DNA from: an uncultured Bacteroidales bacterium
GTDB lineage: Bacteria; Bacteroidota; Bacteroidia; Bacteroidales; P3
Length of the DNA: 64,000 nucleotides
Assembly (NCBI GenBank): GCA_900315935.1
Contig: ONBB01000008.1
Coordinates: 39,443 to 103,442, forward strand
Direction of reading: 5' to 3'
In this document: piece by piece, positions 9,220 through 63,226 of the stretch
How positions within the stretch are numbered: the stretch's first letter is position 1
How the letters are laid out: every line of letters starts with the position of its first letter
Translations under genes and position numbers: made by a program
Notes under the pieces: generated by a model
What the model was told of the DNA's origin: nothing
Seen by the model: the letters and a program-made list of their open reading frames with translations, nothing else
Databases searched by the model: none

Positions 9220-9244
9220 TAACGCCGATTGTTGCAAAATGTTG
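9220..9244 (-). promoter_or_regulatory. Weak copy of CAATAAA-N13-CGTTA element before thyA
   Basis: Minus strand CAACATT, 13 nt, CGTTA, then AAGGGAG and the thyA ATG 12 nt on. The first half matches only 4 of 7; spacing is exact. Confidence 0.4.
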
Positions 9245-9285
9245 TATCGGCACTGCGATTTTATCAAAATCACAGTGGCGACCCG

Positions 9286-9864
9286 CTAGCGGCGATAGAA
9301 GTGCATCTCGGTGAGGTACTGATAGACAGGCTCGGAGAGCAGATAGCGCACATCGCGGCCAGCTTGTATCTGCCGGCGGATATAGGTGGAGGAGATGTCC
9401 ATCATGGGCACATCGACCATCGTTACCGACGGGTGCGAGGCCAGGGGGCAGTGCTCGCTGCCGGGGCGGGGATATACAAAGATGCGGTGATGGGCCAGGA
9501 TGTGCTCGTAGTTGCGCCAGCGGTGCAGGCTCTCCAGGTTGTCGGAACCCATGATGAGGCTGAACTCATGCGTGGGATGCTTCTCCTGCAGGGCGGCGAG
9601 GGTAACCACGGTGTAGCTGGGCACCGGCAGGTGCATCTCTATGTCGCAAGCCTTGAGGCGGTAGTTGTTGTCGATGGCGCGGCGCACCATGGCCAGGCGA
9701 TGATGGTCGGCCAGCAGGGTGGCGCGCTCTTTGAGCGGGTTCTGCGGCGAGACGACCAGCCACACCTCGTCCACCTCCCCGTGCTGCACCATCGTGTTGG
9801 CAATGATGAGGTGCCCGACATGTATCGGGTTGAACGAGCCGAAGAAGAGGGCCGTGCGCTTCAC
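9286..9864 (-). CDS. nadD: Nicotinate-nucleotide adenylyltransferase
   Basis: Makes deamido-NAD from nicotinate mononucleotide and ATP in NAD synthesis; 192 residues, normal length. The nucleotidyltransferase signature GSFNPIHVGHL is at residues 9-19 and the second motif ISSTYIRRQI is near the C-terminus. The start codon is GTG at 9864, overlapping an AAGG; it lies 6 nt after the stop of the secreted-protein gene upstream, so the two form an operon. Confidence 0.95.
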   Translation of the reverse strand: MKRTALFFGSFNPIHVGHLIIANTMVQHGEVDEVWLVVSPQNPLKERATLLADHHRLAMVRRAIDNNYRLKACDIEMHLPVPSYTVVTLAALQEKHPTHEFSLIMGSDNLESLHRWRNYEHILAHHRIFVYPRPGSEHCPLASHPSVTMVDVPMMDISSTYIRRQIQAGRDVRYLLSEPVYQYLTEMHFYRR

Positions 9865-9870
9865 CTTCCG

Positions 9871-10485
9871 CTAGTAGTACTTGTACGCCGTCTCAATCTT
9901 GATATGGCGCAGGCGCTGCCCCTTGAAGGTGTATATCTGGGCCACCTCGCCGGCGGCCGACACCACCTTGAGCACCGCCACCTCGGCGGTGTAGCTCTTG
10001 GGGTATTTCTTGAAAAAGACCTTGAAGACGTCGTCTTTGGTCGATCCAGGCCGCAGGCCGTTGGCCAAAATGATTTCGGAGTCACTGACGTGTCCCGCCA
10101 GCACCTCTACTTTGCGCGTCCAGATGGAGTAAAAGAGGTCAAGGTAGCTCCCGTCAAGGCGCGTCATGCGGTTGACCGACACCTCCATCGAGTCGAAGTA
10201 CTTGCGGTAGTCGCTCTCGCGGTACCAATGCAGCTGGTTGTCAGTGATGTAGTCCTCCATCGACTCCCACACGCCGAAGGGGTATATTACCTGGTTGGAC
10301 ATGGTGTAGACCGTCATGGTGTCGGTGTATACCTTGATATCCTTGATCTGGTATTCGGGACGGGCGAATGCCTGCATCCGCATGGCTTTGGCACGTGCCG
10401 AGACGTTGCCGGTAACCACGTGCTGCTGTGCAACAGCCACGGCCGAAGCGATGACGAGGGCTATGATGACGAGGGTTTTCTTCAT
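9871..10485 (-). CDS. Secreted protein of unknown function
   Basis: 204 residues beginning with a clear signal peptide (MKKTLVIIALVIASAVAVAQ). I do not recognise a family. The mature part is mixed alpha/beta, with many Tyr and Val residues and a C-terminal region (GQRLRHIKIETAYKYY) reading like a strand-rich end. It precedes nadD by 6 nt and is preceded by an exact CAATAAA-N13-CGTTA element. Confidence 0.75.
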   Translation of the reverse strand: MKKTLVIIALVIASAVAVAQQHVVTGNVSARAKAMRMQAFARPEYQIKDIKVYTDTMTVYTMSNQVIYPFGVWESMEDYITDNQLHWYRESDYRKYFDSMEVSVNRMTRLDGSYLDLFYSIWTRKVEVLAGHVSDSEIILANGLRPGSTKDDVFKVFFKKYPKSYTAEVAVLKVVSAAGEVAQIYTFKGQRLRHIKIETAYKYY

Positions 10486-10512
10486 TGAGGTGTTTTTTGT
10501 TTTTAGTACCCT

Positions 10513-10537
10513 TAACGCGGCAATACTTGCTTTATTG
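10513..10537 (-). promoter_or_regulatory. CAATAAA-N13-CGTTA element (secreted protein-nadD)
   Basis: Exact copy on the minus strand, about 28 nt before the ATG at 10485. No TAnnTTTG box is seen close to the gene. Confidence 0.6.
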
Positions 10538-10829
10538 TGCAGAGGCGATTTTTTTCATTTTTTCCCGCACAGCCGCCCCCAGATGCCTCTGCTGCGGCTC
10601 TGCCCACCGAAATTTATATCGATAAAAATCGCCATTGCAGTAATTACGTATCAACTCCAACTCCGCCCAGCAACCGTCAGCGTTTCCGCGATTTTTTCGA
10701 CATATTCGATTTTTTCCAAGTTTATTTATACAGCTGATTTACAAATACATAACTTTTCCACATGTATCGATAGTCGAACCATTCCCCTACCATCCCCCTA
10801 GAATTACCCTAGAGAACCCTAGGCAAATA
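10538..10829. other. Intergenic region between birA and the nadD operon
   Basis: AT-rich with T-runs, and a CTAG-rich stretch (CCTAGAATTACCCTAGAG with CCCTAGG, about 10797-10822). No gene seen. Confidence 0.5.
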
Positions 10830-11576
10830 TCACCCGTATATCGATAAATCGCCCCCCTCAAAGGCAACCTCCTTCATCCCGCAGCAGAGGCGGCGCCCAT
10901 CGGCGGCCGTGAGTAACAGGCGCCCATAGGGGTCGATGCCCGTGATGGTGGCCGTAAGCACCTGGCCCACATAGCGATAGCGTGCCGGATGGCCCATGAG
11001 CATCAGGTGTCGCAGGTACTCGGCATCCAGGTCGCTGTCGGCGCGCAGACTGTCGTACCTCCGCCCGATACACTCCAGCAACCGCAGCAGCAGTGGCTCC
11101 AGGGCGTGGCAGCGCCCCGTCAGCAGACTTATCGACGTGGGGTTGGGCACCCAGGAGGGGAAGTCCATCTGATTCACATTCAGCCCGATGCCGCAGACTG
11201 CCGAGGCGATGCGGTCGCCCTGCAGGCGGGTGCTCACCAGGGTGCCGCATATCTTCCTGCCGCCGACATAGATGTCATTGGGCCACTTGATGAAAGTGGA
11301 ATGTGGTAAATGGTAAGTGGAAAGCAGGTCGACCAAAGCGAGCGAGAGGGCTTGCGTAAGGCGGAACTGCCGATCGGCCGGCAGGAATGTGGGATGCAGC
11401 ACCAGGCTGAAGGTCAGGTTCTTGCCCGGCTCCGCCGCCCAGTGGTTGCCTCGCTGCCCGATGCCGGCGGTCTGCTCCAGCGCCCAAAAGCAAGTGAAGT
11501 CCCCGACCTCGCCGAGGTCGAGGGCTTCACAATACTTGTTCGTCGACTCTACAGAGTCGATTTTTACGATTTTCAA
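10830..11576 (-). CDS. birA: Biotin--[acetyl-CoA-carboxylase] ligase
   Basis: Attaches biotin to carboxylase carrier proteins; 248 residues, catalytic domain only, no N-terminal repressor helix-turn-helix. Motifs: QTAGIGQRGNHW (ATP/biotin loop), KWPNDIYV and CGIGLNVN; the small SH3-like C-terminal domain follows. The start codon is TTG at 11576 and sits inside an AT-rich TTTCAATTTT-type repeat. Residues LLSTYHLPHSTF just before the KWPND motif are encoded by a 7-nt repeat (11291-11324). Confidence 0.93.
   Translation of the reverse strand: MKIVKIDSVESTNKYCEALDLGEVGDFTCFWALEQTAGIGQRGNHWAAEPGKNLTFSLVLHPTFLPADRQFRLTQALSLALVDLLSTYHLPHSTFIKWPNDIYVGGRKICGTLVSTRLQGDRIASAVCGIGLNVNQMDFPSWVPNPTSISLLTGRCHALEPLLLRLLECIGRRYDSLRADSDLDAEYLRHLMLMGHPARYRYVGQVLTATITGIDPYGRLLLTAADGRRLCCGMKEVAFEGGDLSIYG
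11291..11324. repeat. In-frame heptamer repeat inside birA
   Basis: Minus-strand units TTTCCAC, TTACCAT, TTACCAC, ATTCCAC encode STYHLPHST, directly before the conserved KWPND motif. Confidence 0.6.
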
Positions 11577-11597
11577 TTTTAAATTTTCAGTTTAAAT
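11571..11597. repeat. TTTCAATTTTAAA repeat between frr and birA
   Basis: AT-rich degenerate repeat spanning the frr stop and the birA TTG start. Confidence 0.45.
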
Positions 11598-12155
11598 CGA
11601 CATAATCTCCTTTTCCTTGGCGGCGTAGATTTTGTCGCACTCGGCGATGTGCTTGTCGGTGATGTCCTGGAGTTCTTTCTCCACCTGCTTCACCTCGTCC
11701 TCGGGCACCGACTTGTCCTTGAGCTTCTTGACCTTGTCCATCACGTTGCGGCGCACGTTGCGGACGTTGACCTTGGCGTTCTCAATCTCGGTCTTTGCGG
11801 CCTTGCTCAGCTCGCGGCGGCGCTCCTCGGTGAGCGGCGGGATGACGATGCGCAGCATGTCGCCCTCCTGGCGCGGGGTGAAGCCCAGGTTGGCGTCCAT
11901 GATGGCCTTGTTGATGGGGGACACCATGTTCTTCTCCCACGGCTGCACCACGATGGAGCGAGCGTCGGGCGTGTTGATGTTGGCCACCTGGCTGATTTCG
12001 GTCGGGGTGCCGTAGTAGTCCACCTTCACGCCGTCCAACATACCGGGGTTGGCCTTGCCGGCGCGGATTTTGGCCAGCTCCTTCTCCAGGAAGCTGAGCG
12101 AGCTCTGCATACTGTTTTTAGCCTCGTCGAGGCATGCTTTCGATAATTCGTTCAT
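11592..12155 (-). CDS. frr: Ribosome-recycling factor
   Basis: Splits post-termination ribosomes with EF-G; 187 residues, the usual length. Hallmarks are IRAGKANPGMLDGVKVDYYGTPTEISQVA, PWEKN and the Arg-rich RNVRRNVMDKVKKLKDK hinge/helix region. Lies 12 nt after pyrH on the same strand, the common pyrH-frr order. Confidence 0.97.
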   Translation of the reverse strand: MNELSKACLDEAKNSMQSSLSFLEKELAKIRAGKANPGMLDGVKVDYYGTPTEISQVANINTPDARSIVVQPWEKNMVSPINKAIMDANLGFTPRQEGDMLRIVIPPLTEERRRELSKAAKTEIENAKVNVRNVRRNVMDKVKKLKDKSVPEDEVKQVEKELQDITDKHIAECDKIYAAKEKEIMSI

Positions 12156-12167
12156 AGTGTATAGTGT

Positions 12168-12878
12168 TTAGTTTTTTGTTACCAAAGTTCCAATTTCCTC
12201 GCCCTCGACCACGCGCAGCAGGTTGCCCTGGCGGTTCATGTCGAATACGTATATGGGCAGGTCGTTGTCCTCGGCCAACGCAAAGGCGGTGAGGTCCATA
12301 ATTTTGAGCTTCTTCTCCAGCGCTTCGCTGTAGGTGAGGCGCATGTACTTGGTGGCCGAGGGGTCCTTCTCGGGGTCGGCGGTGTAGACGCCGTCCACAC
12401 GCGTGCCCTTCAGTATCACGTCGGCCTGCATTTCGATGGCGCGCAGGGTCGAGGCGGTGTCGGTGGTGAAGAAGGGGTTGCCGGTGCCACCGCTGACGAT
12501 GACCACACGGCCCGCCTCCATGGCCTCCACGGCGCGGCGGCGGCTCATCTCCTTGCAGATGGGCTCCACCGCCAGGCCGCCCAGCAGCTCGGTGCGCATG
12601 CCCTGCTTCTCCAGCTCGGCCTGCAGCGCCATGCTGTTGATTAGCGTGGCCAGCATGCCCATGTAGTCGCCCTGCACGCGGTCCATGCCGTTGGCGGCAC
12701 CGCTCAGGCCGCGGAATATGTTGCCGCCGCCGATGACGATGCCCACCTGGCAGCCGCGGTCCACCACGGCCTTGATATCCGCGGCGTACTGGCTGAGCAT
12801 GGCCGGGCTGATGCCATAGCTTTGGTCGCCCATCAGCGACTCGCCGCTCAGTTTGAGCAATATTCTGTTGTACTTCAT
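12168..12878 (-). CDS. pyrH: UMP kinase
   Basis: Phosphorylates UMP to UDP; 236 residues, amino-acid-kinase fold. Glycine motifs KLSGESLMG and GIVIGGGNIFRG bind nucleotide; GGTGNPFFTTDTAS and LKGTRVDGVYTADP are typical. Start ATG at 12878, 22 nt after the C10 protease stop on the same strand. No clear promoter is seen in that gap, so it may depend on one upstream or on one I did not recognise. Confidence 0.97.
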   Translation of the reverse strand: MKYNRILLKLSGESLMGDQSYGISPAMLSQYAADIKAVVDRGCQVGIVIGGGNIFRGLSGAANGMDRVQGDYMGMLATLINSMALQAELEKQGMRTELLGGLAVEPICKEMSRRRAVEAMEAGRVVIVSGGTGNPFFTTDTASTLRAIEMQADVILKGTRVDGVYTADPEKDPSATKYMRLTYSEALEKKLKIMDLTAFALAEDNDLPIYVFDMNRQGNLLRVVEGEEIGTLVTKN

Positions 12879-12900
12879 ATAGTTAGTTTTATTGTTAGTT

Positions 12901-31105: not shown

Positions 31106-31130
31106 CAACGTCAAAACAGCCCATTTATTG
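31106..31130 (-). promoter_or_regulatory. CAATAAA-N13-CGTTG element before nucleotidyltransferase gene
   Basis: Minus strand; first half exact, last base G instead of A; very close to the start codon at 31097. Confidence 0.5.
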
Positions 31131-41433: not shown

Positions 41434-42471
41434 TCAACATCCGCCGAGGGCCGCCTGGATGGCCATCTCGTAGAGCTCGGCGGGGGCGATGCCCATGGCG
41501 CGGGCCTGCTTGGGGACGATGCTCTCGGCGCTTTGGCCGGGGATGGTGTTGACTTCGAGGAAGTAGAGCTCGCGGCGCTCCTCGTCATAGATGTAGTCGA
41601 AGCGCACGATGCCGCTGCAGCCCAGCAGGTCGTAGAGGCGATAGGAGACTTCTTGGATATGGTGCGCGACCTCGGGCGCGACCTCGGCGGGCGTAACCTC
41701 GTTGCTGAAGCCGTCGTACTTGGCCGCGTAGTCGAAGAATTCATGTCCGCCGGTGGGGATGATTTCGGTGACGGGGAAGACTAGCTTGTGCTTGAAGTCG
41801 GGGTGCCAGTTCTCGTACTTCGACCCTTTGGCGAACTGGAAGACGCCGCAGTCGAACTCGCGGCCCGCGATGAACTCCTCGACCAGCACCTGGCGGTCTT
41901 CGGCAAAAGCCTCGCGGATGGCGGGCAGGAGCTGCTCGCGGCTCTTCACCTTGGTGGTGGCGACGCTGCTTCCGCCGGCGGCGGGTTTGACGAAGACGGG
42001 GTAGCCCAGGCCCTGCACCAGCTCGTCGAGCTTGGCCTCGGTGGGCGGCTCCTTGTAGAGCAGGACGGAGCGGGCCACCTTGACCAGCCCTGTCGCCGCC
42101 ACCACGGGGTTGCAGTACCCCTTGTGGAAGGTCAGTGCCGAGGTGTAGAAGCCGCAGGTGGTGTACTTGATGCCGAGCATGTCGAGGTAGCCCTGCAGCA
42201 CGCCGTTCTCGCCCGGGTTGCCGTGGATGATGATGAAGGCCAGGTCGAAGCGCACCTTCTGCCCGTCGACCGTGATGCTGAAATCGTTGCGGTCCACCGG
42301 CACCTTCTCTTCGCCGCGGGTGAGGCCGTACCACTCCTCGCGCGTGATTACTATTTTATATACGTTGTATTTCGCGTGGTCGAGCTGCCCGTACACCTGG
42401 TTGCCGCTGGCAATCGAGATGTCGAACTCGCCGCTGTATCCGCCCATCACCAGGGCTATGTTCTTCTTCAT
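41434..42471 (-). CDS. ddl: D-alanine--D-alanine ligase
   Basis: Makes D-Ala-D-Ala for peptidoglycan; 345 residues, normal length. N-terminal substrate motif LVMGGYSGEFDIS, HGNPGENG, the ATP-grasp core (FVKPAAGGSSVATTKV) and the C-terminal EVNTIPGQS metal/substrate motif. Start at MKKNIALVMGG (42471). An exact CAATAAA-N13-CGTTA element lies 19 nt upstream and overlaps the stop of the GSCFA gene. Confidence 0.96.
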   Translation of the reverse strand: MKKNIALVMGGYSGEFDISIASGNQVYGQLDHAKYNVYKIVITREEWYGLTRGEEKVPVDRNDFSITVDGQKVRFDLAFIIIHGNPGENGVLQGYLDMLGIKYTTCGFYTSALTFHKGYCNPVVAATGLVKVARSVLLYKEPPTEAKLDELVQGLGYPVFVKPAAGGSSVATTKVKSREQLLPAIREAFAEDRQVLVEEFIAGREFDCGVFQFAKGSKYENWHPDFKHKLVFPVTEIIPTGGHEFFDYAAKYDGFSNEVTPAEVAPEVAHHIQEVSYRLYDLLGCSGIVRFDYIYDEERRELYFLEVNTIPGQSAESIVPKQARAMGIAPAELYEMAIQAALGGC

Positions 42472-42490: not shown

Positions 42491-42515
42491 TAACGCGGCA
42501 CAGTCCGTTTTATTG
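42491..42515 (-). promoter_or_regulatory. CAATAAA-N13-CGTTA element before ddl
   Basis: Exact copy on minus; its CAATAA is also the last Gln codon and stop of the GSCFA gene. Confidence 0.6.
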
Positions 42516-43421
42516 TGCCAGCACGTCGACCCGCAGCGGGATGTGCCGTCGGCGTTTCGCCTGCTTGGCGTTGTTGTGGACCTGCTGGATGGTGGCGGGC
42601 GTCATGGTGGCGCGCTGGAAGCGGTCGTAGACGATGTCTTCAGCCAGGGCGCTGGGGTGCGACAGGTCGGGGCCGTAGAAGCGGTAGTCGCGCAACTCGT
42701 CGAGCACTATCTCGTAGGCGGGGAAGTAGGAAATTGAAAATTGAGAATTGAAAATTGAAACCAATTCCTCCACGGCCAGCAGCAGCGTGGCCTTGCTCAC
42801 CTGGTTGCCGTGGGCGCCGTCGGCCATGTGGCGTATGGGGCTGACGGTGAGGATGGTTATGAGTTCGGAGTTATAAGCTATGAGTTTTTGCAGCAGGGGC
42901 TTCCATCTGCCCACCGTCTCCTCCACCGATATGCGGCGGCGGGTGAAATGCCGGGGCGGCAGCTTGTGGCAGTTCGCCACCACCATCCCATTCCCCTCTC
43001 CTGCGGGATTGGATGCGAGGCTGAACACATACGCCGTGCCGAAGGTCAGCATCAGCACCCTGGCCTCCCGCAACGCACTGTGCGCCTGGCGGATGCGGCT
43101 GTTGCAGGCGGCGAGGCACTCCTCCACGGTGGGGCGCGAGAAAGAGCCGTGGTGGTGCCACGAGTGGAAGAGGCCGTCGTGCCGCACCAGGTCGTCGGAC
43201 GTGATTTCGCGGCAGTCGACGATGCGCTCCAGAGCCTCGGCCACCGACAGCGGGTTGTAGAGCGTGCCGAAGGGGTTGCGCTCCACGCGGAACCCGCCCT
43301 CCTCGAGCCGCGTCCCGATGGCATCGGCAAAACACGACCCAAGCGTAACAACGCCATCCTCCAGCCCAAGGCTGAACCCCATCGGCGCAACCTCGACAGA
43401 AGTAAACAGTCTAGCAGTCAT
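42510..43421 (-). CDS. GSCFA domain-containing protein
   Basis: 303 residues of the GSCFA family (PF08885), named for the motif seen here as TLGSCFADAIG; also FGTLYNP, LTFGTAYVF and TVSPIRH, consistent with an SGNH-like hydrolase fold. Biological role unknown; possibly polysaccharide deacylation. Two segments, LIAYNSELITI and LVSIFNSQFSISY, are encoded by AACTCATAACTC-type and TTTCAATTTTC-type repeats. Preceded by an exact CAATAAA-N13-CGTTA element and followed by ddl. Confidence 0.88.
   Translation of the reverse strand: MTARLFTSVEVAPMGFSLGLEDGVVTLGSCFADAIGTRLEEGGFRVERNPFGTLYNPLSVAEALERIVDCREITSDDLVRHDGLFHSWHHHGSFSRPTVEECLAACNSRIRQAHSALREARVLMLTFGTAYVFSLASNPAGEGNGMVVANCHKLPPRHFTRRRISVEETVGRWKPLLQKLIAYNSELITILTVSPIRHMADGAHGNQVSKATLLLAVEELVSIFNSQFSISYFPAYEIVLDELRDYRFYGPDLSHPSALAEDIVYDRFQRATMTPATIQQVHNNAKQAKRRRHIPLRVDVLAQ
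42729..42762. repeat. In-frame TTTCAATTCTC repeat in GSCFA gene
   Basis: On minus: TTTCAAT, TTTCAAT, TCTCAAT, TTTCAAT-type units encode VSIFNSQFSIS. Confidence 0.75.
42855..42886. repeat. In-frame AACTCATAACTC repeat in GSCFA gene
   Basis: Minus-strand ACTCATA, GCTTATA, ACTCCGA, ACTCATA units encode LIAYNSELIT. Confidence 0.6.
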
Positions 43422-43442: not shown

Positions 43443-43467
43443 TAACGCCTGCCTCTATTATTTATTG
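43443..43467 (-). promoter_or_regulatory. CAATAAA-N13-CGTTA element before GSCFA gene
   Basis: Exact copy on minus, about 21 nt before the ATG at 43421. Confidence 0.6.
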
Positions 43468-46996: not shown

Positions 46997-47021
46997 CAAT
47001 AAAGACTGCCAAACGGCGTTA
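46997..47021 (+). promoter_or_regulatory. CAATAAA-N13-CGTTA element before TonB receptor
   Basis: Exact copy, 28 nt before the ATG at 47050; a GTTAC/GTAAC mini-hairpin follows. Confidence 0.6.
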
Positions 47022-47049: not shown

Positions 47050-49041
47050 ATGTACCAACCCAAACAACACACTGGCGCGCTGCGCTTCCGCCGGTTCTGC
47101 CGTGCGGGGTGGGCGGCCTTCAGCTCGATGCACCGCGAGGTTACCATCGGGCGGCTGGCTGTCCGCGTGGCCGACAACAGCCTCTGCAAGGTGGCCGTCT
47201 GCTGCCTGCTGACCGCTGTCGGCTCTCCCCTGATGGCACAGACCGACGACGACCGCGAGGTGCGCACGCTGCCCGAGGTGGAGGTGCTGCTTGCCTCCGA
47301 CTCGCTGGGCTCGGCCTCCGAGCCTGCTGCGGTACTCACCGCAGACGAACTCCAACAACACAACATCCGTACCCTTGCCGACCTCGTGGCCCTGCTGCCC
47401 GGGGTGGATCTCCGTGTGCGCGGCGTAGGCGATGCGCAGGGCGACCTCTCGCTGCGCGGCGGCACGTTCGACCAGACGTTGCTGCTGCTCAACGGCATCA
47501 ACCTCACCGACCCCCAGACGGGGCACCACACGATGGACATCCCACTGGACATCAGCATGGTGCAGCGCGTCGAGCTGCTCACGCCGGCCCTGTGCCTAGC
47601 GCGCGGCGTGGTGGCCTTCTGCGGCGCGGTGAACATCGTGGTCTGCGACGACTACCGCGACCGCCTGCTGGCCGACCTCTCCATCGGTATACACGGCACC
47701 GCCAAGGCATCGCTCCTGGCCACCAAGGCGCTGGGCGACTGGGCGTTGACCACTGCCGCCATCTATAGCCGAAGCGACGGCTACATGCCCAACACCGACT
47801 ACCGCCACGGCAGCCTCCTGCTGCAGGCGCGGCGCCAGGGGTGGCACCTCCAGCTCAGCGGCCAGCTCAAGGGCTTCGGCAGCCAGGCTTTCTATTCCAC
47901 CGCCTACCCCGACCAGTACGAGGCCACGCGCACCCTCGTCGCCTCGGTCTCCAACCATTTCCAGCTTTCCGCTTTCCGCTTTCAACTCTCCTCCTACTTC
48001 CGCCTCCACGGCGACCGCTTCGAGCTCTTCCGCGAGGGCTATGTGGACAGCGTACCCTCCTGGTATTCAGGGCACAACCACCACCTGTCCAGCCTCGGCG
48101 GCCTGCGCCTGCGCGCCACGCGTCCCCTGCCCGTGGGCGAGCTCATCGCCGGTGCCGAGGTGCGCCGCGAGGGCATCCGCAGCAACGTGCTGGGGCTGCC
48201 CGACAGCACCCTGAAGCCACCCTATACTCGCGCCGACAGCCGCCTGAATGCCAGCCTTTTCGGTGGCTATGCCCTGCGCCGCGGCCGCTTCAGTGCCCAA
48301 GCCGTCGCCCTCGGCCTCCACAACAGCCGCTACGGCTTCGACTACGGCCTCGCCGCCAACGCCGACTATCAACTTCCCACTTTCAACCTTCAACTTTCAG
48401 CCTCCCGCACCTTCCGCCAGCCCACCTTCACCGACCTCTACTACCAGGGGCCCAGCCAGCAGGCCAATCCCGACCTCGGCCCCGAGGCCAGCACCAACCT
48501 CGAGCTGGCCCTGCGAGGTAAAGTTTCAATTTTCAATTTACAATTTACAATTTACCACCGTGCCGGCGTGGACATCATCGGCTGGGTGCGCCCCACGGAG
48601 GAGGACCTCTGGCTCTCGATGAACCACACCGCCGTCGACGCCACCGGCCTCGATGCGGCAGCCCGTTTCCAATTTTCAATTTTCAATTTTCAATTCAACT
48701 ACTCCTTCTGCCACATCGCCGCCGACAGCCGCGGTCTCCTCTCCAGCTCGGCTCTCGACCACCTGCGCCACCGCCTTGCCGCCCGTATGGACTTTGCCAT
48801 TTCCTCGTTCCACTTCAAGTTGGGCGCCGCCTACCGCTACCGCGAGGGGCAGTATGTGGCTGACGGGCAGCGGCATGACTACGGTGGCGTGCTGCTGGTG
48901 GATGCCGGCCTGGAGCGTGCCTTCGGGTCGGCCACCCTCTACCTGCAGGCGTACAACCTACTGAATGCCAGCTACCGCGACTATGGCGGCGTGCCCCAAC
49001 CCGGCATCACCGCCACCGCAGGTCTGCGATTGGGTTTGTGA
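47050..49041 (+). CDS. BtuB-like TonB-dependent outer membrane receptor
   Basis: 663 residues. Starts with an extended signal region (RFRRFCRAGWAAFSSMHREVTIGRL) before the hydrophobic signal (VAVCCLLTAVGSPLMAQ), a pattern seen in Bacteroides BtuB-type receptors. Plug domain: LPEVEVLLASDS, LADLVALLPGVDLRVRG, LSLRGGTFDQTLLLLNGINLTDPQTGHH; then a 22-strand barrel ending YNLLNASYRDYGGVPQPGITATAGLRLGL. Imports a large ligand (vitamin B12 or a siderophore) with TonB-ExbBD energy; ligand unknown. Four barrel strands are encoded by TTTCAATTT-type repeats. The open frame extends 108 codons upstream through repeat copy B and is ignored. Confidence 0.9.
   Translation: MYQPKQHTGALRFRRFCRAGWAAFSSMHREVTIGRLAVRVADNSLCKVAVCCLLTAVGSPLMAQTDDDREVRTLPEVEVLLASDSLGSASEPAAVLTADELQQHNIRTLADLVALLPGVDLRVRGVGDAQGDLSLRGGTFDQTLLLLNGINLTDPQTGHHTMDIPLDISMVQRVELLTPALCLARGVVAFCGAVNIVVCDDYRDRLLADLSIGIHGTAKASLLATKALGDWALTTAAIYSRSDGYMPNTDYRHGSLLLQARRQGWHLQLSGQLKGFGSQAFYSTAYPDQYEATRTLVASVSNHFQLSAFRFQLSSYFRLHGDRFELFREGYVDSVPSWYSGHNHHLSSLGGLRLRATRPLPVGELIAGAEVRREGIRSNVLGLPDSTLKPPYTRADSRLNASLFGGYALRRGRFSAQAVALGLHNSRYGFDYGLAANADYQLPTFNLQLSASRTFRQPTFTDLYYQGPSQQANPDLGPEASTNLELALRGKVSIFNLQFTIYHRAGVDIIGWVRPTEEDLWLSMNHTAVDATGLDAAARFQFSIFNFQFNYSFCHIAADSRGLLSSSALDHLRHRLAARMDFAISSFHFKLGAAYRYREGQYVADGQRHDYGGVLLVDAGLERAFGSATLYLQAYNLLNASYRDYGGVPQPGITATAGLRLGL
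47951..47990. repeat. In-frame TTTCCAGCTTTCCGC repeat in TonB receptor (1)
   Basis: Units TTTCCAG, CTTTCCG, CTTTCCG, CTTTCAA encode HFQLSAFRFQLSSYF, an alternating strand pattern. Confidence 0.7.
48369..48400. repeat. In-frame CTTTCAACCTTCAA repeat in TonB receptor (2)
   Basis: Units encode LPTFNLQLSA. Confidence 0.65.
48523..48557. repeat. In-frame TTTCAATTTACAA repeat in TonB receptor (3)
   Basis: TTTCAA, TTTTCAA, TTTACAA, TTTACAA, TTTACC encode VSIFNLQFTIYH. Confidence 0.8.
48665..48699. repeat. In-frame CAATTTT repeat in TonB receptor (4)
   Basis: CAATTTT three times and CAATTCAAC encode FQFSIFNFQFNYS. Confidence 0.8.
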
Positions 49042-51255: not shown

Positions 51256-52576
51256 AATGCCGCTTGTGCCGGTGGCCCTGGCGCTGCTGGCGGGCATTGT
51301 AGCGTCCATCCTCACCCCGAAGGTGGACACCGACGTGTGGGTGGCGGCCATGGTGGCCAGCACCTTTTTGGGTGGCATCCTGCTGATTGCCAATTTCAAA
51401 CAAAAGGATACCGTGCTGACGGGGCTCTTCCTGGCGGTAATGTTCGTGGTGGGTGGGGTGCGGCAGCACGTGAGCGACCCCGTGCGCGACGAGCTGAATT
51501 GGCGGCACCACTGCCGGGCACCCAGCTACCTGGCCATGAGACTCAAAGAGACCCCTGTGCCACGCGAAAAGAGCTACCGCGTGGCGGTCCGCGTGGAACA
51601 GGTCGACGGCCAAGACGTGCGCGGAACGATGCGCCTATACCTGCGCAAAGACCTAGACGCCAGCCAACTAAAGTACGGCGACCGCCTGCTGGTGCACGGC
51701 TACGCCGACACGGCGCGCGGCACGATGTACACCACGGGCGACCATTATATTATAGTATCGCGCGACAGCACTTCGCGCCGCGCCCGCATCGAAGCGTTGA
51801 GGATGAAGTTGTTGCGCCGCATGCAGGCCGGCCCCTTGCCCGCACGGCAGGCCGGCGTGGCGGAGGCACTCACATTGGGATGGAAGGCCGACATAGACCC
51901 CGAGACCCGCGATGCCTACCGCGACGCCGGCATCGCCCACCTGCTGGCCGTGAGCGGGTTGCACGTGGGACTACTGGCCGCCATGGTGGGTGCGCTGATG
52001 TTCTGGACCGGCAAGGAACGGCGAGGGCGGACGATACGCGGCAGCGTGCAACTGGTGGCGGTGTGGGGCTTTGCGCTCATCACCGGGCTGGCACCCTCGA
52101 CGGTGAGGGCGGCGCTGATGTTCAGCCTGTTCATTGTGAGCAACATACTGGGTCGCCGCACCGAGACCTTCAACCTGCTGGCCGCCAGCGCCATCATTAC
52201 CCTGATGGGAAACCCGATGCTGGTAACCGACACCGGCTGGCAGCTGTCCTACGCCGCCGTAACGGGCATACTGCTGGCGCGACCTGCCATCATAAATCGA
52301 CGTTCCAGGCTAATAAAGTCAGCCGATGTATGCATCTCTGCAACGATAGCCACTGCCCCAATTACCATTGCAACATTCCATCAGTTTCATCCATACTTTT
52401 TGATAGCAAACGTTGTTGTCATTCCTTTTTCTTTCATTATTCTAGCACTGTCGCTGCTCTATATGGCCGTGCCGGCGGCATGGACGGCGTGGCCGCTGGA
52501 GTGGACCCTGCGGGCGGTGGAGGCGCTGACCTCATGGGTGGCCAGCCTGCCTGGGGCTGTAATCGAAATACAATAA
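51248..52576 (+). CDS. ComEC/Rec2 family competence-type membrane protein, short form
   Basis: 442 residues with about nine membrane helices. N-terminal OB-like segment (residues 95-170) and the Competence domain with HLLAVSGLHVGLLAA and GLAPSTVRAALMF. The C-terminal metallo-beta-lactamase domain of full ComEC (700-800 residues) is absent, which is common in Bacteroidota. Role inferred: passage of single-stranded DNA across the inner membrane. DNA 52295-52450 is distinctly AT-rich with different codon use. Its Gln-stop codons are part of the CAATAAA element of the next gene. Confidence 0.85.
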   Translation: MRRMPLVPVALALLAGIVASILTPKVDTDVWVAAMVASTFLGGILLIANFKQKDTVLTGLFLAVMFVVGGVRQHVSDPVRDELNWRHHCRAPSYLAMRLKETPVPREKSYRVAVRVEQVDGQDVRGTMRLYLRKDLDASQLKYGDRLLVHGYADTARGTMYTTGDHYIIVSRDSTSRRARIEALRMKLLRRMQAGPLPARQAGVAEALTLGWKADIDPETRDAYRDAGIAHLLAVSGLHVGLLAAMVGALMFWTGKERRGRTIRGSVQLVAVWGFALITGLAPSTVRAALMFSLFIVSNILGRRTETFNLLAASAIITLMGNPMLVTDTGWQLSYAAVTGILLARPAIINRRSRLIKSADVCISATIATAPITIATFHQFHPYFLIANVVVIPFSFIILALSLLYMAVPAAWTAWPLEWTLRAVEALTSWVASLPGAVIEIQ

Positions 52577-52595
52577 ACGCAACATTTTGCCGTTA
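52571..52595 (+). promoter_or_regulatory. CAATAAA-N13-CGTTA element before M14 peptidase
   Basis: Exact copy, 11 nt before the ATG at 52607; CAATAA doubles as the end of comEC. Confidence 0.6.
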
Positions 52596-52606: not shown

Positions 52607-53866
52607 ATGAAACAGCACCTGCTACTCCTCGCCCTGCTGGCCACCACCCTGGCGGCCAGCGCCCAGCTCAAACCGCGCCCCGATGCCTTCCCGCCCGTAG
52701 CGGAGACCTTGGCCACCAAAGCCATCACGATGGCCTCCTCCGTCGACGAGATGGCCTCGTGGGACCGCTATCCCTCCTACGAGACCTACGTGGCGATGAT
52801 GCAGCGCTGGGCGGAGCAGTACCCCGAAATATGCTCGCTCGACACCATCGGCACCTCGGTGCAGGGGCGCCTCATCCTGGCAGTGCAAATCGAAGGCCAG
52901 CGGCTGGCCGACGTCTATAAACCCCAATTCTTCTACAGCTCGACCATCCACGGCGACGAGGTAACGGGCTACGTGATGATGCTGCGCCTGATTGACACAC
53001 TGCTCGCCAGCTACGGCAACAGCCCGAGGCTCACCGCGTTAGTGGACGAGGTGGGCATCTACATCAACCCCCTGGCCAACCCCGACGGCACCTACCGCCG
53101 CGGCAACCACACCGTGCGGGGCGCCATCCGATACAACGCAGACACTGTGGACCTCAACCGCACCTTCCCCGACCCTTTCAGCGGCGTAGCCGCCAAAGCC
53201 GTGCCGCAGGAAAACCAGGCGATGATAGACTACGTCAGCGCCCACCGCTTCCGCCTGAGCGCCAACCTGCACGGCGGCGCCGAGGTGATGAACTACCCCT
53301 GGGACAGCTTCACCAGCACCATGCGGCCGCACCCCGAAGCCGAGTGGTGGCAGGAGGTGTGCAAACGCTTCGTGGACACCTGCCGCCTGCAGAGCCGCAG
53401 CTACCTGCGCGACGTAACCGAGTCGGGCTACACCGCCGGCGGCGACTGGTACGTCATCGGAGGCGGACGGCAGGACTATATGAACCACTACCACAACTGT
53501 CTGGAACTCACCATGGAAATCTCCACTGCCAAGACGGTTCCCAGCGAACAACTGCCCACCTACTGGCACTACCTCAACGCCGCGCTAATCAACTATATCG
53601 GGGAAATATACACGCTGCCCGGCACCGAAGGCATCGCCGACCGAAGCGCATCCCTCATACAAGTGTACCCCAACCCAACGATAAACAGCGTGGTTGTCCG
53701 CGGGTTGCAACAAGGGGAACGCTTGGAACTGCTCGACATAACTGGGCGAAGCCTCGCCACACTCACGGCAGGCGGAACGCCAATGCTGGTGGATCTCGGC
53801 AACCTGCCGCGGGGAATTTATCTACTACGTACTGGCAACCAGTGTGCAAAGGTGGTTAAACACTAG
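52607..53866 (+). CDS. Secreted M14 zinc carboxypeptidase with T9SS tail
   Basis: 419 residues. Signal peptide (MKQHLLLLALLATTLAASA), M14 domain with zinc ligands in STIHGDE (His, Glu) and LHGG (His), DLNRTFPDP, and a catalytic Glu in CLELTMEIS. The last about 75 residues (VYPNPTINSVVVRG ... GIYLLRTGNQCAKVVKH) are a type A T9SS sorting domain. Removes C-terminal residues from peptides outside the cell, complementing the C10 and S46 peptidases of the region. Confidence 0.92.
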   Translation: MKQHLLLLALLATTLAASAQLKPRPDAFPPVAETLATKAITMASSVDEMASWDRYPSYETYVAMMQRWAEQYPEICSLDTIGTSVQGRLILAVQIEGQRLADVYKPQFFYSSTIHGDEVTGYVMMLRLIDTLLASYGNSPRLTALVDEVGIYINPLANPDGTYRRGNHTVRGAIRYNADTVDLNRTFPDPFSGVAAKAVPQENQAMIDYVSAHRFRLSANLHGGAEVMNYPWDSFTSTMRPHPEAEWWQEVCKRFVDTCRLQSRSYLRDVTESGYTAGGDWYVIGGGRQDYMNHYHNCLELTMEISTAKTVPSEQLPTYWHYLNAALINYIGEIYTLPGTEGIADRSASLIQVYPNPTINSVVVRGLQQGERLELLDITGRSLATLTAGGTPMLVDLGNLPRGIYLLRTGNQCAKVVKH

Positions 53867-58162: not shown

Positions 58163-58189
58163 CAACTTTTCCGCGAACTGGCGGCATTT

Positions 58190-58310
58190 CATTTCACCCC
58201 ACCCCTCCAGGGCATGCCGAACAGAGGAAGAAGAGGGGAAGAAGAGGATGGTTACAAAAGACTGAAAAACAGCCTGTTCTGCCGGAGCAAAAACAGGCTG
58301 TTTTTTGTTT
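58190..58310 (+). repeat. Dispersed intergenic element, copy C
   Basis: GCCGAACAGAGGAAGAAGAG, then GGGAAGAAGAGGAT (58217-58250), then a hairpin. Confidence 0.7.
58268..58308. terminator. Hairpin terminator downstream of dnaE
   Basis: Eleven-bp stem AACAGCCTGTT/AACAGGCTGTT (58268-58278, 58292-58302), T-runs on both strands. Confidence 0.75.
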
Positions 58311-58339
58311 TTTTTACAGAAAATCGACGGCTTTTCGAG

Positions 58340-61300
58340 CTACTGTTTCGGCACCGGCTGCAGGTCGAACACACCGGGCAGACGGCCGAGTTCGGGCATG
58401 ATGTCGCGGACACTGACCCGGAGGTCGGGCGACCGCATGGTCAGCTGCAGGTTGCGCTCCGTGTCGACCACCAGGGCCTGCAGCGGGACATTCCCCTTGT
58501 GGCGTTTGGCCATGGCATGCAACTGGGTGCAGAATGCCTCGTCCACATCGTTCAGCCTCACCTTGAAGCCCAACGTGGCTGTGTATTTGTCCATCACGCC
58601 TCCAAGGTTCATCATACTACTGATTTTGAGACGTGTGTAGCTTTTCTCGGCACCAGTCTTCTTGTCGGTGTAGCGGCTGGTGCGCACGAGGGCACGACAG
58701 TAGATGAAGGTATTGTCTATGAAGAAGTTGCGGAAGTCGGTATACTCCTGCTTGTATAGTTTGAGCTCGTAGCTTCCCGAGTAGTCGTCCAGCACCATGC
58801 TGCCGAACGCATCGCCCATCTTGCTGACCATCTCCTTGACACCCGACACCATGCCGCCAAAGCGCACCTCGCGGCCGTCGAGGGCCTCGAGGTTGTTCAG
58901 CGCGTCGACACCGATATTGGTAAAGGACTGCATCTCATATCGGTAGTCGTCCAGCGGGTGGCCGCTGAGGTAGGTCGACACTACCTCCTTCTCGTAGCGG
59001 CAGCGCTCGATGTTGGTCCAGGGCTGCACGTCGGGGATGGTCGGGTGCTCCTCCTCGGCTAGGTCGGCGCTCATGCTGAAGATGGACATCTGGTTGGAGG
59101 CGGCACCGTCCTGGCGGCGGATGGCCCAGCGCACCAGCTGGTCGAGGTAGGTCGGCGTGGTCTCGAGGTCGTTCTCCTTGTAGAAGTACTGCGCGCGGTG
59201 CATCTCGCCCACACCGTCGAAGGCACCGGCCTTGACCAGCACCTCCATGTTCTTCTTGTTGATAGAGTGCATGTCGATGCGCTTGAGGAAGTCGAAGATG
59301 TCCTTGAAGGGGCCGTTCTTCTCGCGCTCGGCGATAATGACGCTGCTGGCCGCCTCGCCCATGCCGCTGATGGCCTGCAGTCCGAAGCGTATCTTGCCGT
59401 CCTCGTCGACAGCGAAGTCCATCTGCGAGTGGTTCACCGAGGGGGCCGCCACCTCGACGCCCTGGCGCCGGCAGTCGTCCATCAGCTCGCGCACACGTCC
59501 TATGTCGGTCTGTGCCGAGGTCATGACGGCGGCCATGTACTCGGCAGGGTAGTTCGCCTTGAGGTAGGCCGTCTGGTAGGCCACCCACGAGTAGCAGGCG
59601 GCGTGGCTCTTGTTGAAGGCGTAGGAGGCGAATTTCTTCCAGTCCTCCCATATCTTCTTCAGTTTCTCGCGCGGGTGTCCGTTCTTCTCGCCGCCTTCGT
59701 AGAAGAGCACCTCCAGCTCGTTCATCTTGTCTATCTGCTTCTTGCCCATGGCCTTGCGCAGGGTGTCGCTCTGGCCTCGGGTGAAGTCCGCCAGCAGGCG
59801 GGAGAGGAGCATGACCTGCTCCTGGTAGACGGTGATGCCGTAGGTGTCCTTGAGGTACTTCTCCATCACCGGTATGTCGTACTCCACCGGCTTGCGTCCC
59901 TGCTTGCGGTCGATGAAGTCGGGGATGTAGTCCATGGGGCCTGGGCGGTAGAGGGCGTTCATGGCGATGAGGTCGTCGATGACATGGGGCTGCAGCTCGC
60001 GCAGGTACTTCTGCATGCCGGCCGACTCGAACTGGAACACACCCACCGTGTTGCCCTCGCAGAAGAGCTTGTAAGTCAGCTCGTCGTCGAGCGGCAGGTG
60101 GTCCATATCCACCTCGATGCCGCGCCCCTTCTTGAGCATGGCCACGCAGTTCTTGATGATGGTGAGGTTCTTCAGGCCGAGAAAGTCCATCTTGATAAGT
60201 CCCACCGTCTCGACCACGTGGCCGTCGTACTGCGTTACCAGCTGGTTGTCTATCACGCATATCGGGGCGATGTTGGTCAAGTCCTGCGAACCGATGATGA
60301 CACCGCAGGCGTGGATGCCCACCTGGCGGTTGGTATCTTCCAGCTCGGAGGCGTAGGTGAGCATCTGCTTCATCTTCACATCCTCCCCTTCCATAATGGC
60401 CTTCAGCTCGGGCACATACTTGTAGCAGTTCCGAAGGTTCACCTTGGGCGCCTTGCCGCTCTCGTCTTTCACGTTGTCGGGGAAGCCGCGGTCGGGGATG
60501 TAGCCCTTGAGCTTGTTGACCTCGCCCAGGGGTACCTTCTCCACGCGACCCACGTCGGCGATGGAGCTCTTGGTGGCCATGGTGCCGTAGGTGATGATAT
60601 GGGCCACGCGCTCCTTGCCATATTTCTCGGTTACCCAGTCGAGCACCAGCTCGCGTCCGGCGTCATCGAAATCGACATCGATATCGGGCAGCGAGATGCG
60701 GTCGGGGTTGAGGAAGCGTTCGAAGAGGAGGTCGTAGCGCAGGGGGTCGAGGTCGGTAATCCAAAGGCAGTAGGCCACCACGGAGCCTGCCGCCGAACCG
60801 CGGCCGGGGCCCACGCTGACGCCCAGCTCTTCGCGCGCGGCGCGTATGTAGTCGGAGACGATGAGGAAGTAGCCTGGGAAGCCCATGGTCTTGATGGTGT
60901 GGAGCTCGAAGCGGATGCGTTCCTGCTGTTCGGGCGTGAGTTCGTCGCCATAGCGCTTGTGTGCACCCTCCCACACGAGGTGCTCCAGGTAGTCGGCCTC
61001 GAACTTGATGCGGTAGAGTTTGTCGTATCCACCCAGGCGCTTGACCTTCTTCTCGGCGGCCTCGCGCTCCAAGACCACCTCGCCCTTCTCGTTGCGGGTG
61101 AACTCGTTGAAGAGGTCCTCCTCGGAGAAGCGTGCGCGCCACTGCTCCTCGGTGCCGAAACTGTCGGGGATGGGGAACATGGGCATGAGGGGGTCGGAGT
61201 CGATGCTGTAGGTCTCCACCTTGTCGGCAATCTCCATGGTGTTGGCCAGCGCCTCGGGCAGGTCGGCGAACAGGGCGGCCATCTCGTCGGGACTCTTGAG

Positions 61301-62125
61301 CCACTCCTGCTTGGTGTAGTGCATGCGGTTGGGGTCGTCGTAGTCCTTCTGGGTGGCCAGGCAGATGAGGTGGTCGTGGGCCTCGCCGTGTTCCTCCTCG
61401 ACGAAGTGGGAGTCGTTGGTGGCAATGAGCTTGATGCCGTGCTTGCGCGCCAGGGCGATGAGCTGGGGCTCCACCTTCTGCTGCTGGCGGTAGGTGTCGG
61501 TGTTGGCGTTGGGCTTGTCGGTGGGGTGGCGCATGAGCTCGATGTAGTAGTCGTCGCCGAAGCGCTCCTTGAACCAAAGCACCGCCCTTTCGGCCCCCTC
61601 GAGGTCGCCTTTGAGGAGCAGCTGCGGCACCTCGCCGCCGAGGCATGCCGAGGAGACAATGAGGCCCTCGCGGTACTGCTCCAGCACGTTGTGGTCGATA
61701 CGCGGACGGTCGTAGAAGCCGTCGGTGTAGGCGATGGAGGAGAGCTTGCAGAGGTTGTGGTAGCCGCGGAGGTTTTTGGCCAGGAGGATGAGGTGGTAGC
61801 CCGAGCGGTCGACGATGCGGTCGCGCCCGTTCTCGGGGTTCACCTCGCGCAGGTTCTTGTCCTTGTCGTAAAGGGTGCGGCGGGCGCAGTAGGCTTCGAT
61901 GCCGACGATGGGCTTGAAGAGCGGCTCGCCCTCCTTCGAGGCTTTGGAGTTCACCTTGGCGGCGGTGTCAAGGAAGTCCTTGATACCGAACATGTTGCCA
62001 TGGTCGGTAAGGGCCAGGCTGTGCATGCCGCAGCGGCGGGCTTTGGCGATGAGGTCGGGGACTTTCGACATGCCGTCGAGCATCGAGTAGTGCGAGTGCA
62101 CGTGGAGGTGGGTGAACTGTACCAT
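58340..62125 (-). CDS. dnaE: DNA polymerase III alpha subunit
   Basis: Main replicative polymerase; 1261 residues, normal length. N-terminal PHP domain (HLHVHSHYSMLDG ... ALTDHGNMFG), C-family polymerase core with SLPDIDVDFDD (catalytic Asp) and GPGRGSAAGS, tau-binding and helix-hairpin-helix region, and C-terminal OB-fold (VRFGGMVSGVKEM). Start at MVQFTHLHVHSHYS (62125); the open frame reaches 55 codons further but without similarity and across the promoter. Confidence 0.97.
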   Translation of the reverse strand: MVQFTHLHVHSHYSMLDGMSKVPDLIAKARRCGMHSLALTDHGNMFGIKDFLDTAAKVNSKASKEGEPLFKPIVGIEAYCARRTLYDKDKNLREVNPENGRDRIVDRSGYHLILLAKNLRGYHNLCKLSSIAYTDGFYDRPRIDHNVLEQYREGLIVSSACLGGEVPQLLLKGDLEGAERAVLWFKERFGDDYYIELMRHPTDKPNANTDTYRQQQKVEPQLIALARKHGIKLIATNDSHFVEEEHGEAHDHLICLATQKDYDDPNRMHYTKQEWLKSPDEMAALFADLPEALANTMEIADKVETYSIDSDPLMPMFPIPDSFGTEEQWRARFSEEDLFNEFTRNEKGEVVLEREAAEKKVKRLGGYDKLYRIKFEADYLEHLVWEGAHKRYGDELTPEQQERIRFELHTIKTMGFPGYFLIVSDYIRAAREELGVSVGPGRGSAAGSVVAYCLWITDLDPLRYDLLFERFLNPDRISLPDIDVDFDDAGRELVLDWVTEKYGKERVAHIITYGTMATKSSIADVGRVEKVPLGEVNKLKGYIPDRGFPDNVKDESGKAPKVNLRNCYKYVPELKAIMEGEDVKMKQMLTYASELEDTNRQVGIHACGVIIGSQDLTNIAPICVIDNQLVTQYDGHVVETVGLIKMDFLGLKNLTIIKNCVAMLKKGRGIEVDMDHLPLDDELTYKLFCEGNTVGVFQFESAGMQKYLRELQPHVIDDLIAMNALYRPGPMDYIPDFIDRKQGRKPVEYDIPVMEKYLKDTYGITVYQEQVMLLSRLLADFTRGQSDTLRKAMGKKQIDKMNELEVLFYEGGEKNGHPREKLKKIWEDWKKFASYAFNKSHAACYSWVAYQTAYLKANYPAEYMAAVMTSAQTDIGRVRELMDDCRRQGVEVAAPSVNHSQMDFAVDEDGKIRFGLQAISGMGEAASSVIIAEREKNGPFKDIFDFLKRIDMHSINKKNMEVLVKAGAFDGVGEMHRAQYFYKENDLETTPTYLDQLVRWAIRRQDGAASNQMSIFSMSADLAEEEHPTIPDVQPWTNIERCRYEKEVVSTYLSGHPLDDYRYEMQSFTNIGVDALNNLEALDGREVRFGGMVSGVKEMVSKMGDAFGSMVLDDYSGSYELKLYKQEYTDFRNFFIDNTFIYCRALVRTSRYTDKKTGAEKSYTRLKISSMMNLGGVMDKYTATLGFKVRLNDVDEAFCTQLHAMAKRHKGNVPLQALVVDTERNLQLTMRSPDLRVSVRDIMPELGRLPGVFDLQPVPKQ

Positions 62126-62191
62126 GGCGGATGGGCGTTGTGTGTTGATATTAAACGAAAAGCGGCGACCGACACCGCGGCGTCGGAAGTG

Positions 62192-62199
62192 CAAAGATA
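62192..62199 (-). promoter_or_regulatory. -7 box of dnaE
   Basis: TATCTTTG on minus, about 70 nt before the start codon. Confidence 0.6.
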
Positions 62200-62242
62200 C
62201 GCTTTTTTTTGCCACCGCGGCCGATTGTTGAAAACTATTTTT

Positions 62243-62276
62243 TTTGCCACCGAATGAAATATTTTGCGTACCTTTG
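62243..62276 (+). promoter_or_regulatory. Promoter of secreted coiled-coil gene
   Basis: -33 TTTG 62243-62246, -7 TACCTTTG 62269-62276. Confidence 0.65.
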
Positions 62277-62328
62277 CAACTAAATAGCATAACGAATATA
62301 GTATTAATCCATTTAAAAACAAACTATT

Positions 62329-63063
62329 ATGGTAAAGAAACTGTTATCCTTTGCAGCCGCCATGCTGCTGGTGGGCGCCCTCGTGGCCCAGAATGTGCAG
62401 GTAACGCCGGTACAGATTGGCGAGATGACCGCCAACGGCTACACCGTAACCCTCGACAAAGACCTGAAACTCACCGAGAAGGCCATGGAGAAGCGCATCA
62501 AGGAGGCCAAGCTCAAGACCTCGAAGGCCAAGCCCTACACCGCCTGCCTCAACCAGGTGTTCGCCGACCTGGCCGCCGAGCCGGTGGACTTCTACTTCAA
62601 ACTCGAAGAGAAAGGCAAGAAGAAAGACCGCAGCACCGAGCTGACCGTCTGCGTCATCCCCAAGGACCTCACCAGCAACCAGGAGGTACTGCAGGCCAAT
62701 GTGCGCAAGTTCCTCGAGGGCTTCGGCCAGTATGTGGCCAAGTTCGAGGCCGGCATCAATATGGAAGAGATGCAGAAGGAACTCGAGAAGGCCCAGAAGG
62801 CCCTCAAGGGCGCCGAGGGCGACTTCGCCGACCTGGAGAAGAGCATCAAGAAGGACCAGGATCGCATCGCCTCGAAGAAGAAGGACATCGAGGGCTACAA
62901 GTCCAAAATAGCCGATGCCGAGAAGGACATCAAGGACCTGGAGTCGAACATAAAGAATACCGAAAGCCAGAAAGCCCCCGCGCAGAAGAAGATAGAAGAG
63001 GCGAAGGAGAAGGTGAAGAAAGCCGAGGCCGAGGTGGAGAAATACCGCCGCCTGAGCGAGTAA
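62329..63063 (+). CDS. Secreted protein with C-terminal coiled coil
   Basis: 244 residues: signal peptide (MVKKLLSFAAAMLLVGALVAQ), a globular region to about 135, then a long Lys/Glu-rich coiled coil (QKELEKAQKALKGAEGDF ... KAEAEVEKYRRLSE). The globular part has no family I recognise. Ends in a very strong terminator. Confidence 0.75.
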   Translation: MVKKLLSFAAAMLLVGALVAQNVQVTPVQIGEMTANGYTVTLDKDLKLTEKAMEKRIKEAKLKTSKAKPYTACLNQVFADLAAEPVDFYFKLEEKGKKKDRSTELTVCVIPKDLTSNQEVLQANVRKFLEGFGQYVAKFEAGINMEEMQKELEKAQKALKGAEGDFADLEKSIKKDQDRIASKKKDIEGYKSKIADAEKDIKDLESNIKNTESQKAPAQKKIEEAKEKVKKAEAEVEKYRRLSE

Positions 63064-63089
63064 ACGCTGCCCGAAAACAGCCCGATTCA

Positions 63090-63120
63090 GGGCGCCGCGC
63101 ACCGCGCGGCGCCCTTTTTT
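63090..63120 (+). terminator. Terminator of coiled-coil gene
   Basis: Eleven-bp GC stem 63090-63100/63104-63114 then TTTTTT. Confidence 0.9.
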
Positions 63121-63139
63121 GCACCAAGACAAACAGCTG

Positions 63140-63195
63140 ACAACCAGCTACTTGAAAGCATCCTATTCTTCCCCTCTTCTTCTTCGGTAGGTGAA
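63140..63195 (-). repeat. Dispersed intergenic element, copy G (partial)
   Basis: Minus strand CGAAGAAGAAGAGGGGAAGA followed by ATAGGAT, similar to copies A-C. Confidence 0.5.
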
Positions 63196-63201
63196 CGGGC
63201 A

Positions 63202-63226
63202 CAATAAAGCGTGGAATCCGGCGTTA
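63202..63226 (+). promoter_or_regulatory. CAATAAA-N13-CGTTA element upstream of the microORF/DUF6266 array
   Basis: Exact copy about 105 nt before the first 32-codon ORF. Confidence 0.55.

Follow-up and report, generated by a model that had tools for sequence, protein, structure and literature searches.

A stretch of 64,000 nucleotides (nt) from an uncultured Bacteroidales bacterium (contig ONBB01000008.1, positions 39,443 to 103,442; the whole of it is called the window below) carries several copies of a two-part motif, CAATAAA-N13-CGTTA. The motif is most probably a promoter read by an alternative sigma factor, one of the extracytoplasmic function (ECF) type, and the uncultured rumen bacteria of this genus seem to use it as a second, very strict start signal besides the standard one. 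CAATAAA would be the -35 element and CGTTA the -10 element, transcription would begin about 7–11 nt after CGTTA, and the motif would replace the primary-sigma box (TAnnTTTG), mostly before ordinary genes and also before some tRNA genes. An earlier note on the window had likened the layout to an ECF promoter, a view supported by the enrichment upstream of genes, the copy numbers in the genome and its relatives, the small number of genes with both boxes, the geometry relative to start codons and the tRNA genes.

Occurrence and form of the motif

The earlier note judged the motif too frequent for chance and, in agreement with this, not one exact copy appeared in any of 100 dinucleotide shuffles of the window; with up to two mismatches, 11 matches were counted in the window against 1.98 expected. 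Across the window's own assembly (G000; 2.29 Mb in 31 contigs, 96.6% complete) the exact motif occurs 42 times and its reversed control not at all, and each of 36 other genomes of the same genus holds 5 to 75 exact copies (controls 0–2). No excess was seen in 24 genomes of other Bacteroidales families (30 copies summed versus 32 for the control), and 295 further Bacteroidota genomes had at most five copies each, the controls likewise reaching five. When up to one mismatch was allowed, copies and controls numbered 98 and 8 in G000, 141 and 14 in G016, 64 and 6 in G029, 54 and 13 in G014, and 40 and 17 in G031, which after subtraction of the control leaves about 90 sites in G000 and 127 in G016. 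Judged by these sequence counts, the motif class is real, strict and specific to the genus.

Strictness was measured in a 449-kb sample of G000 that includes the window. Seventeen exact copies had a spacer of 13 nt, and spacers of 11, 12, 14 and 15 nt gave 0, 0, 1 and 0 copies, so that, as in ECF promoters, an asymmetric pair of short elements is held at a fixed spacing (spacer 13 in 17 of the 18 exact copies with spacers 11–15). Ten of the 17, and all five one-mismatch copies of the sample, lie within -5 to 60 nt of a called start; copies with two mismatches (24) were at control level. A further exact copy with spacer 14 stands on contig C7 before a gene named lemA-like by eye, divergent to a sigma gene. 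Among 30 distinct sites a purine precedes CAATAAA in every case and a T follows CGTTA in 17, and a T-rich stretch lies 11–14 nt upstream. ECF promoters combine an AAC-type -35 with a CGT-type -10 at a characteristic distance. In the motif, the AAT of CAATAAA begins 19 nt before the CGT, and the consensus has AAT as its -35 core, AAC occurring only in variants such as the copy at 9220 of the window. A separate observation concerns G013, where three of the five exact copies have an identical spacer and may thus sit in a repeated element.

The standard box, tRNA genes and start codons

An unbiased count of 4-mer pairs upstream of the 334 called genes of the G000 sample was topped by pieces of TAnnTTTG and of CAAT-N16-CGTTA, and the same search also recovered the motif in G016; applied to the outgroup G060 (384 kb), it yielded no second pair motif. 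As the earlier note had predicted, the motif is enriched upstream of genes: CAAT-N16-CGTT was present in 16 of the 334 regions of G000 (antisense control 2) and in 13 of 320 regions of G016 (control 5). TAnnTTTG was found in 68 regions of G000 (control 29) and in 83 of G016 (control 43), and in neither genome did the two occur together, the co-occurrence within 120 nt being 0/16 in G000 (p = 0.05) and 0/13 in G016 (p = 0.025). The claim that motif genes lack the standard box therefore stands for all 16 motif regions of the 449-kb sample; genome-wide it has exceptions, 3 of 36 motif-proximal genes having a TAnnTTTG string.

In the DNA fetched from the genus, 34 of 41 distinct tRNA genes have TAnnTTTG within 80 nt, and two of the other seven have the motif. 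These are a tRNA-Arg(CCG) gene of G016, with an exact copy 14 nt upstream, and a tRNA-Gly(CCC) gene of G000, with a one-mismatch copy 15 nt upstream, both devoid of TAnnTTTG. The presence of the motif before two tRNA genes argues for a promoter of transcription, and against a translational or operon-junction signal. G016 also holds two exact copies in back-to-back divergent order. An element acting at the RNA level, in translation start or mRNA processing within short leaders or at operon junctions, could account for the frequent closeness of the motif to ATG and for the eight of 42 G000 sites at which CAA-TAA ends the preceding frame (at least 100 open codons being required); in view of the two tRNA genes and the divergent copies, such an element is highly improbable.

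Another reading is that a transcription factor binds CAATAAA-N13-CGTTA as an operator, beside a primary-sigma promoter that is unseen or degenerate. One motif gene, with its site in locus L075, does have a good GTATCTTTGC box shortly after the motif. However, the two halves of the motif are not repeats of each other in either orientation, most motif regions lack the standard box, the motif stands alone before the two tRNA genes, and its geometry relative to ATG fits a promoter, as does the pyrimidine-purine step described below. We consider an operator improbable.

The distance between the end of CGTTA and ATG falls into classes. At the 42 sites of G000 it is 7–11 nt in 18 cases (including locus L066, which precedes a short frame below the length cut of the script), 12–18 nt in none, 19–45 nt in 18 and more in six. 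Among 39 further sites of the genus, 29 have a start within 60 nt: seven at 7–8 nt, four at 12–15 nt, 17 at 19–44 nt and one at 3 nt. The base before ATG is C or T at 24 of 25 sites of the 7–11 nt class, relatives included; the proportion is 25 of 35 sites in the 19–60 nt class (p = 0.02) and, among the genes of G000 that start with ATG, 171 of 285. A pyrimidine is what would be expected there if transcription started at a pyrimidine-purine step at ATG. Were the -10 element centred 10 nt ahead of the start, as in the PM2 promoters of Bacteroides thetaiotaomicron considered below, transcription would begin about 7 nt past CGTTA, which for the closest class is the A of ATG. With a start 7–11 nt after CGTTA, the mRNA would begin at ATG or within a few nt of it at about four in ten sites. 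This pattern supports, short of showing, leaderless mRNAs at the closest sites. Such predicted starts contrast with B. thetaiotaomicron, in which, according to the parts of PMC7366714 consulted, leaders shorter than 10 nt make up only about 3.7% of all 5' leaders.

Several points weigh against the promoter reading. First, a TAnnTTTG string lies within 150 nt of the three motif-proximal genes mentioned above (3/36), which compared with 70 of 334 genes overall gives p = 0.08. Second, some loci entered the tRNA set through their copy of the motif, so that 2/41 may not be taken as an unbiased rate. Third, the empty 12–18 nt interval of G000 is just a trough elsewhere, as the four of 29 sites at 12–15 nt indicate.

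Target genes and copies in the window

Forty of the 42 proteins encoded downstream of the G000 sites were scanned against Pfam (L024 and L065, with DUF6266-like N termini, were left out). The targets comprise a penicillin-binding protein, D-Ala-D-Ala ligase, an S66 carboxypeptidase and M3, M14 and M64 peptidases. Also among them are topoisomerase I, a pterin-binding enzyme (FolP-like), 3-dehydroquinate synthase, asparaginase, ThiF, NIF3 and sugar-nucleotide enzymes, and other targets include a Na/H exchanger, a universal stress protein, PorV, GSCFA, DUF3467, DUF6266 and a PorX-like response regulator with a PglZ domain. About a dozen target proteins have no Pfam family. NIF3, dehydroquinate synthase, S66, epimerase and nucleotidyltransferase targets recur in other members of the genus, as matched by eye on their N termini. 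Proteins with signal-peptide-like N termini were not enriched among the targets (11/35 versus 78/337, p = 0.30). We read the target set as large, mixed and largely housekeeping (ddl, topA, folP, porX, porV).

The eight copies of the window are listed below. The six exact copies of the earlier note were recovered at its positions and strands and the two weaker ones at its positions, as were its seven short distances to start codons and the two sites at which CAA-TAA ends a long preceding frame.

Table. Copies of CAATAAA-N13-CGTTA in the window (distances run from the end of the CGTTA element).
Copy	Position	Strand	Downstream context
Exact	10513..10537	-	27 nt before ATG of a 204-amino-acid secreted-protein-like frame (9871-10485); protein without Pfam family
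Exact	42491..42515	-	19 nt before ATG of ddl (D-Ala-D-Ala ligase, 41434-42471); CAA-TAA closes the upstream GSCFA frame
Exact	43443..43467	-	21 nt before ATG of the GSCFA gene (42510-43421)
Exact	46997..47021	+	28 nt before ATG of a TonB-receptor plug protein (47050-49041)
Exact	52571..52595	+	11 nt before ATG of an M14 zinc carboxypeptidase (52607-53866); CAA-TAA closes the upstream frame
Exact	63202..63226	+	324-nt repeat-rich leader, then a DUF6266-like gene (start 63551)
One mismatch (CGTTG)	31106..31130	-	8 nt before ATG of a nucleotidyltransferase-like gene (start 31097)
Three mismatches (CAACATT-N13-CGTTA)	9220..9244	-	12 nt before ATG of a gene (start 9207); thyA is the label of the earlier note only

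The orthologue of the nucleotidyltransferase-like gene in another genome of the genus (L187, matched by eye) has an exact copy 19 nt before its ATG. At the last exact copy the next protein gene follows only beyond the leader; it is a fragment of 150 amino acids without Pfam family, and the DUF6266-like label comes from its similar N terminus. The leader itself (63227-63550) contains near-identical units of about 110 nt that carry hairpins (GGCAAGCGCATGTTGCGCTTGCC) and GTTGTC/GACAAC stretches with the potential to pair, and is perhaps an attenuator or a non-coding RNA. The L024/L076 locus (G000:C18) begins similarly.

Candidate sigma factors and known promoter classes

Matches to sigma-70 region 2 were found in 14 genes of G000, nine of G016 and 15 of G004; L101, which is not a sigma frame and fell below the family cut-off, and L095, probably in a wrong frame, were set aside. 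The primary sigma factor, L035, L038 and L041 have one-to-one counterparts in the three genomes. The earlier note proposed to look for a cognate ECF gene under its own control. No CGTTA form of the motif was seen at any sigma gene start examined (the 14 of G000 and those fetched from G016 and G004); one ECF gene does have the same -35 and spacing, with another -10.

Our favoured reader, put forward with some reserve, is L035, an orphan ECF factor (G000:C6:39600-40193) present in 31 of the 37 genus genomes. Its gene has a TAnnTTTG box upstream, and downstream an RNA-methyltransferase-like gene (named by eye) and no adjoining anti-sigma gene. Proteins were compared from 30 of the 31 genus genomes and from 10 of the 20 outgroup genomes that have it. 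The -35-reading helix, TALGRMRY, is constant in all 30 genus copies, and the region-2.3 loop (DENKF) has N in 30/30 genus copies versus G in 11/11 copies of the outgroup type. It is through these two regions that ECF factors read the -35 and the -10. One of the 11 outgroup-type copies is a second copy in the genus genome G031 (G031:C237:5303-5863), possibly a contamination. Genus and outgroup leaders of L035 (L261-L298) alike carry a TATC[AG]-type string, about 20–50 nt ahead of the start. Several facts tell against L035 as the reader: it is missing from six of the 37 assemblies, among them G024 (93% complete, 56 sites), no motif precedes its own gene, and its -35-reading helix is identical in outgroups that have no motif, so that only the -10 side can explain the novelty.

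The same promoter could instead be read by L038 (G000:C29:49477-50079), a SigW-like ECF factor found in 34 of the 37 genus genomes, including all 22 that are at least 90% complete. Its best NCBIfam and best PDB matches are Bacillus subtilis SigW, whose -10 is CGTA. L038 is nevertheless an unlikely reader. The motif is constant in the genus, but the helix of L038 that reads the -35 takes many forms there (among others KIRLSRAK, KVRLMRAK, KVQLFRAR and KIQLRRAR), the one in G003 (32 sites) is outgroup-like (KAQLFRTR), and no copy with up to one mismatch lies in the L038 locus of G000, G016 or G004. Eight of 30 L038 loci were viewed.

Somewhat less likely again is an ECF factor of the type encoded at G016:C5:150443-151003, the one with the -35 and spacing of the motif ahead of its gene. 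It occurs in 34 of the 37 genus genomes at 53–66% identity (outgroups at most 42%), including those that lack other candidates, and CAA[TG]AAN-N13-RTAC precedes the gene in 27 of 30 fetched orthologues, 19 of them with exact CAATAAA. However, it was not found in G000 (42 sites), in G011 or in G012 (92% complete, 38 sites), where an assembly gap is possible, and its own -10 is RTAC, not CGTTA. CAA[TG]AAA-N13-RTAC was absent from 783 kb sampled from G000 and G012 and from 261 kb of named contigs of metagenome-assembled genomes, and occurred three times in 400 kb of G016. The three sites of G016 all precede genes, as if a separate set were read, although the numbers are small; on these same small numbers, two ECF factors may share one -35 and differ in their -10. 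The block conserved in the 27 orthologues (among L331-L360), TGCAATAAA-N13-RTAC-TAATAAC, is probably the own promoter of that ECF gene.

L041 (G000:C17) was rejected as a reader: in genomes rich in the motif, for example G023 (39 sites, 98% complete), nothing matched it at E 1e-12. Upstream of the ECF genes L033 and L041 (G000:C13 and C17), TGTAAT is followed about 20 nt on by CGTTA or CGTAT, which as a side reading may be other ECF-like promoters of the same genome.

If L035 is the reader, an orphan ECF factor, itself made from a primary-sigma promoter, may have become a second housekeeping sigma factor, a fixed change in its -10 loop creating a strict promoter that took core and tRNA genes from the primary sigma factor, with about four in ten of these genes leaderless; we offer this account tentatively. 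Bacteroidota have many ECF factors and few known promoters, and here a promoter and its gene set can be read from the sequence of an uncultured lineage. As the class extends throughout one genus and no sign of it was seen in the relatives searched, it might be possible to trace how a new sigma-promoter pair arose.

The motif occupies the same place before genes and tRNA genes as the primary-sigma promoter of Bacteroidota (TTTG / TAnnTTTG), but has no sequence in common with it and rarely co-occurs with it. Promoters of the B. subtilis SigW/SigX kind have AAC in the -35 and a -10 beginning with CGT. The motif resembles them in the distance of 19 nt from AA[C/T] to CGT and in a -10 starting with CGT, and differs in having AAT rather than AAC in the -35, a large, largely housekeeping gene set and no anti-sigma gene beside L035. 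The motif printed for Porphyromonas gingivalis SigP, C(T)AAA(G/C/T)A(T)A(C)T(A/G)A, is very permissive and, where given in PMC4800418, comes with no -10. It admits CAATAAA, porV is a target both here and in the SigP / PorX-PorY regulon, and porX carries the motif here; from the portion of that source consulted, this is a lead only.

The earlier note knew of no such site in Bacteroidales. Indeed no report of this site was found in the open-licence literature on the motif or on Bacteroidota ECF promoters; a second promoter class has nevertheless been described in the order, PM2 of B. thetaiotaomicron, which in the sections of the sources available is the closest described class. PM2 stands beside TAnnTTTG, with elements at -10 and -30, 75 coding genes and, in the sections consulted, an unknown reader (PMC7366714); it is near-palindromic, with TGTT at about -10 (PMC12596196), and oxidative stress response is reported to be over-represented among its genes. 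By these partial descriptions, both form a second class in addition to TAnnTTTG, pair two elements at a distance of about 20 nt and stand at dozens of genes; the motif differs in its non-palindromic halves (the consensus CAATAAA and CGTTA are not complementary), its CGTTA -10 and its mixed gene set. AACAAA-N13-TGTTA was tried as a form of the motif in relatives and rejected, as it was not enriched in the genus and showed no general excess over control (16 versus 7 in G041, 14 versus 4 in G060). In the outgroup G041, AACA-N15-TGTT was present in 10 of 297 upstream regions (two sharing one palindromic site) versus 0–4 at other spacings; nine of the ten have no TAnnTTTG. The AACA/TGTT pair was named before G041 was examined and is not general among outgroups. 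With the same half-to-half distance as the motif, this pair is possibly a PM2-like promoter in another family of the order.

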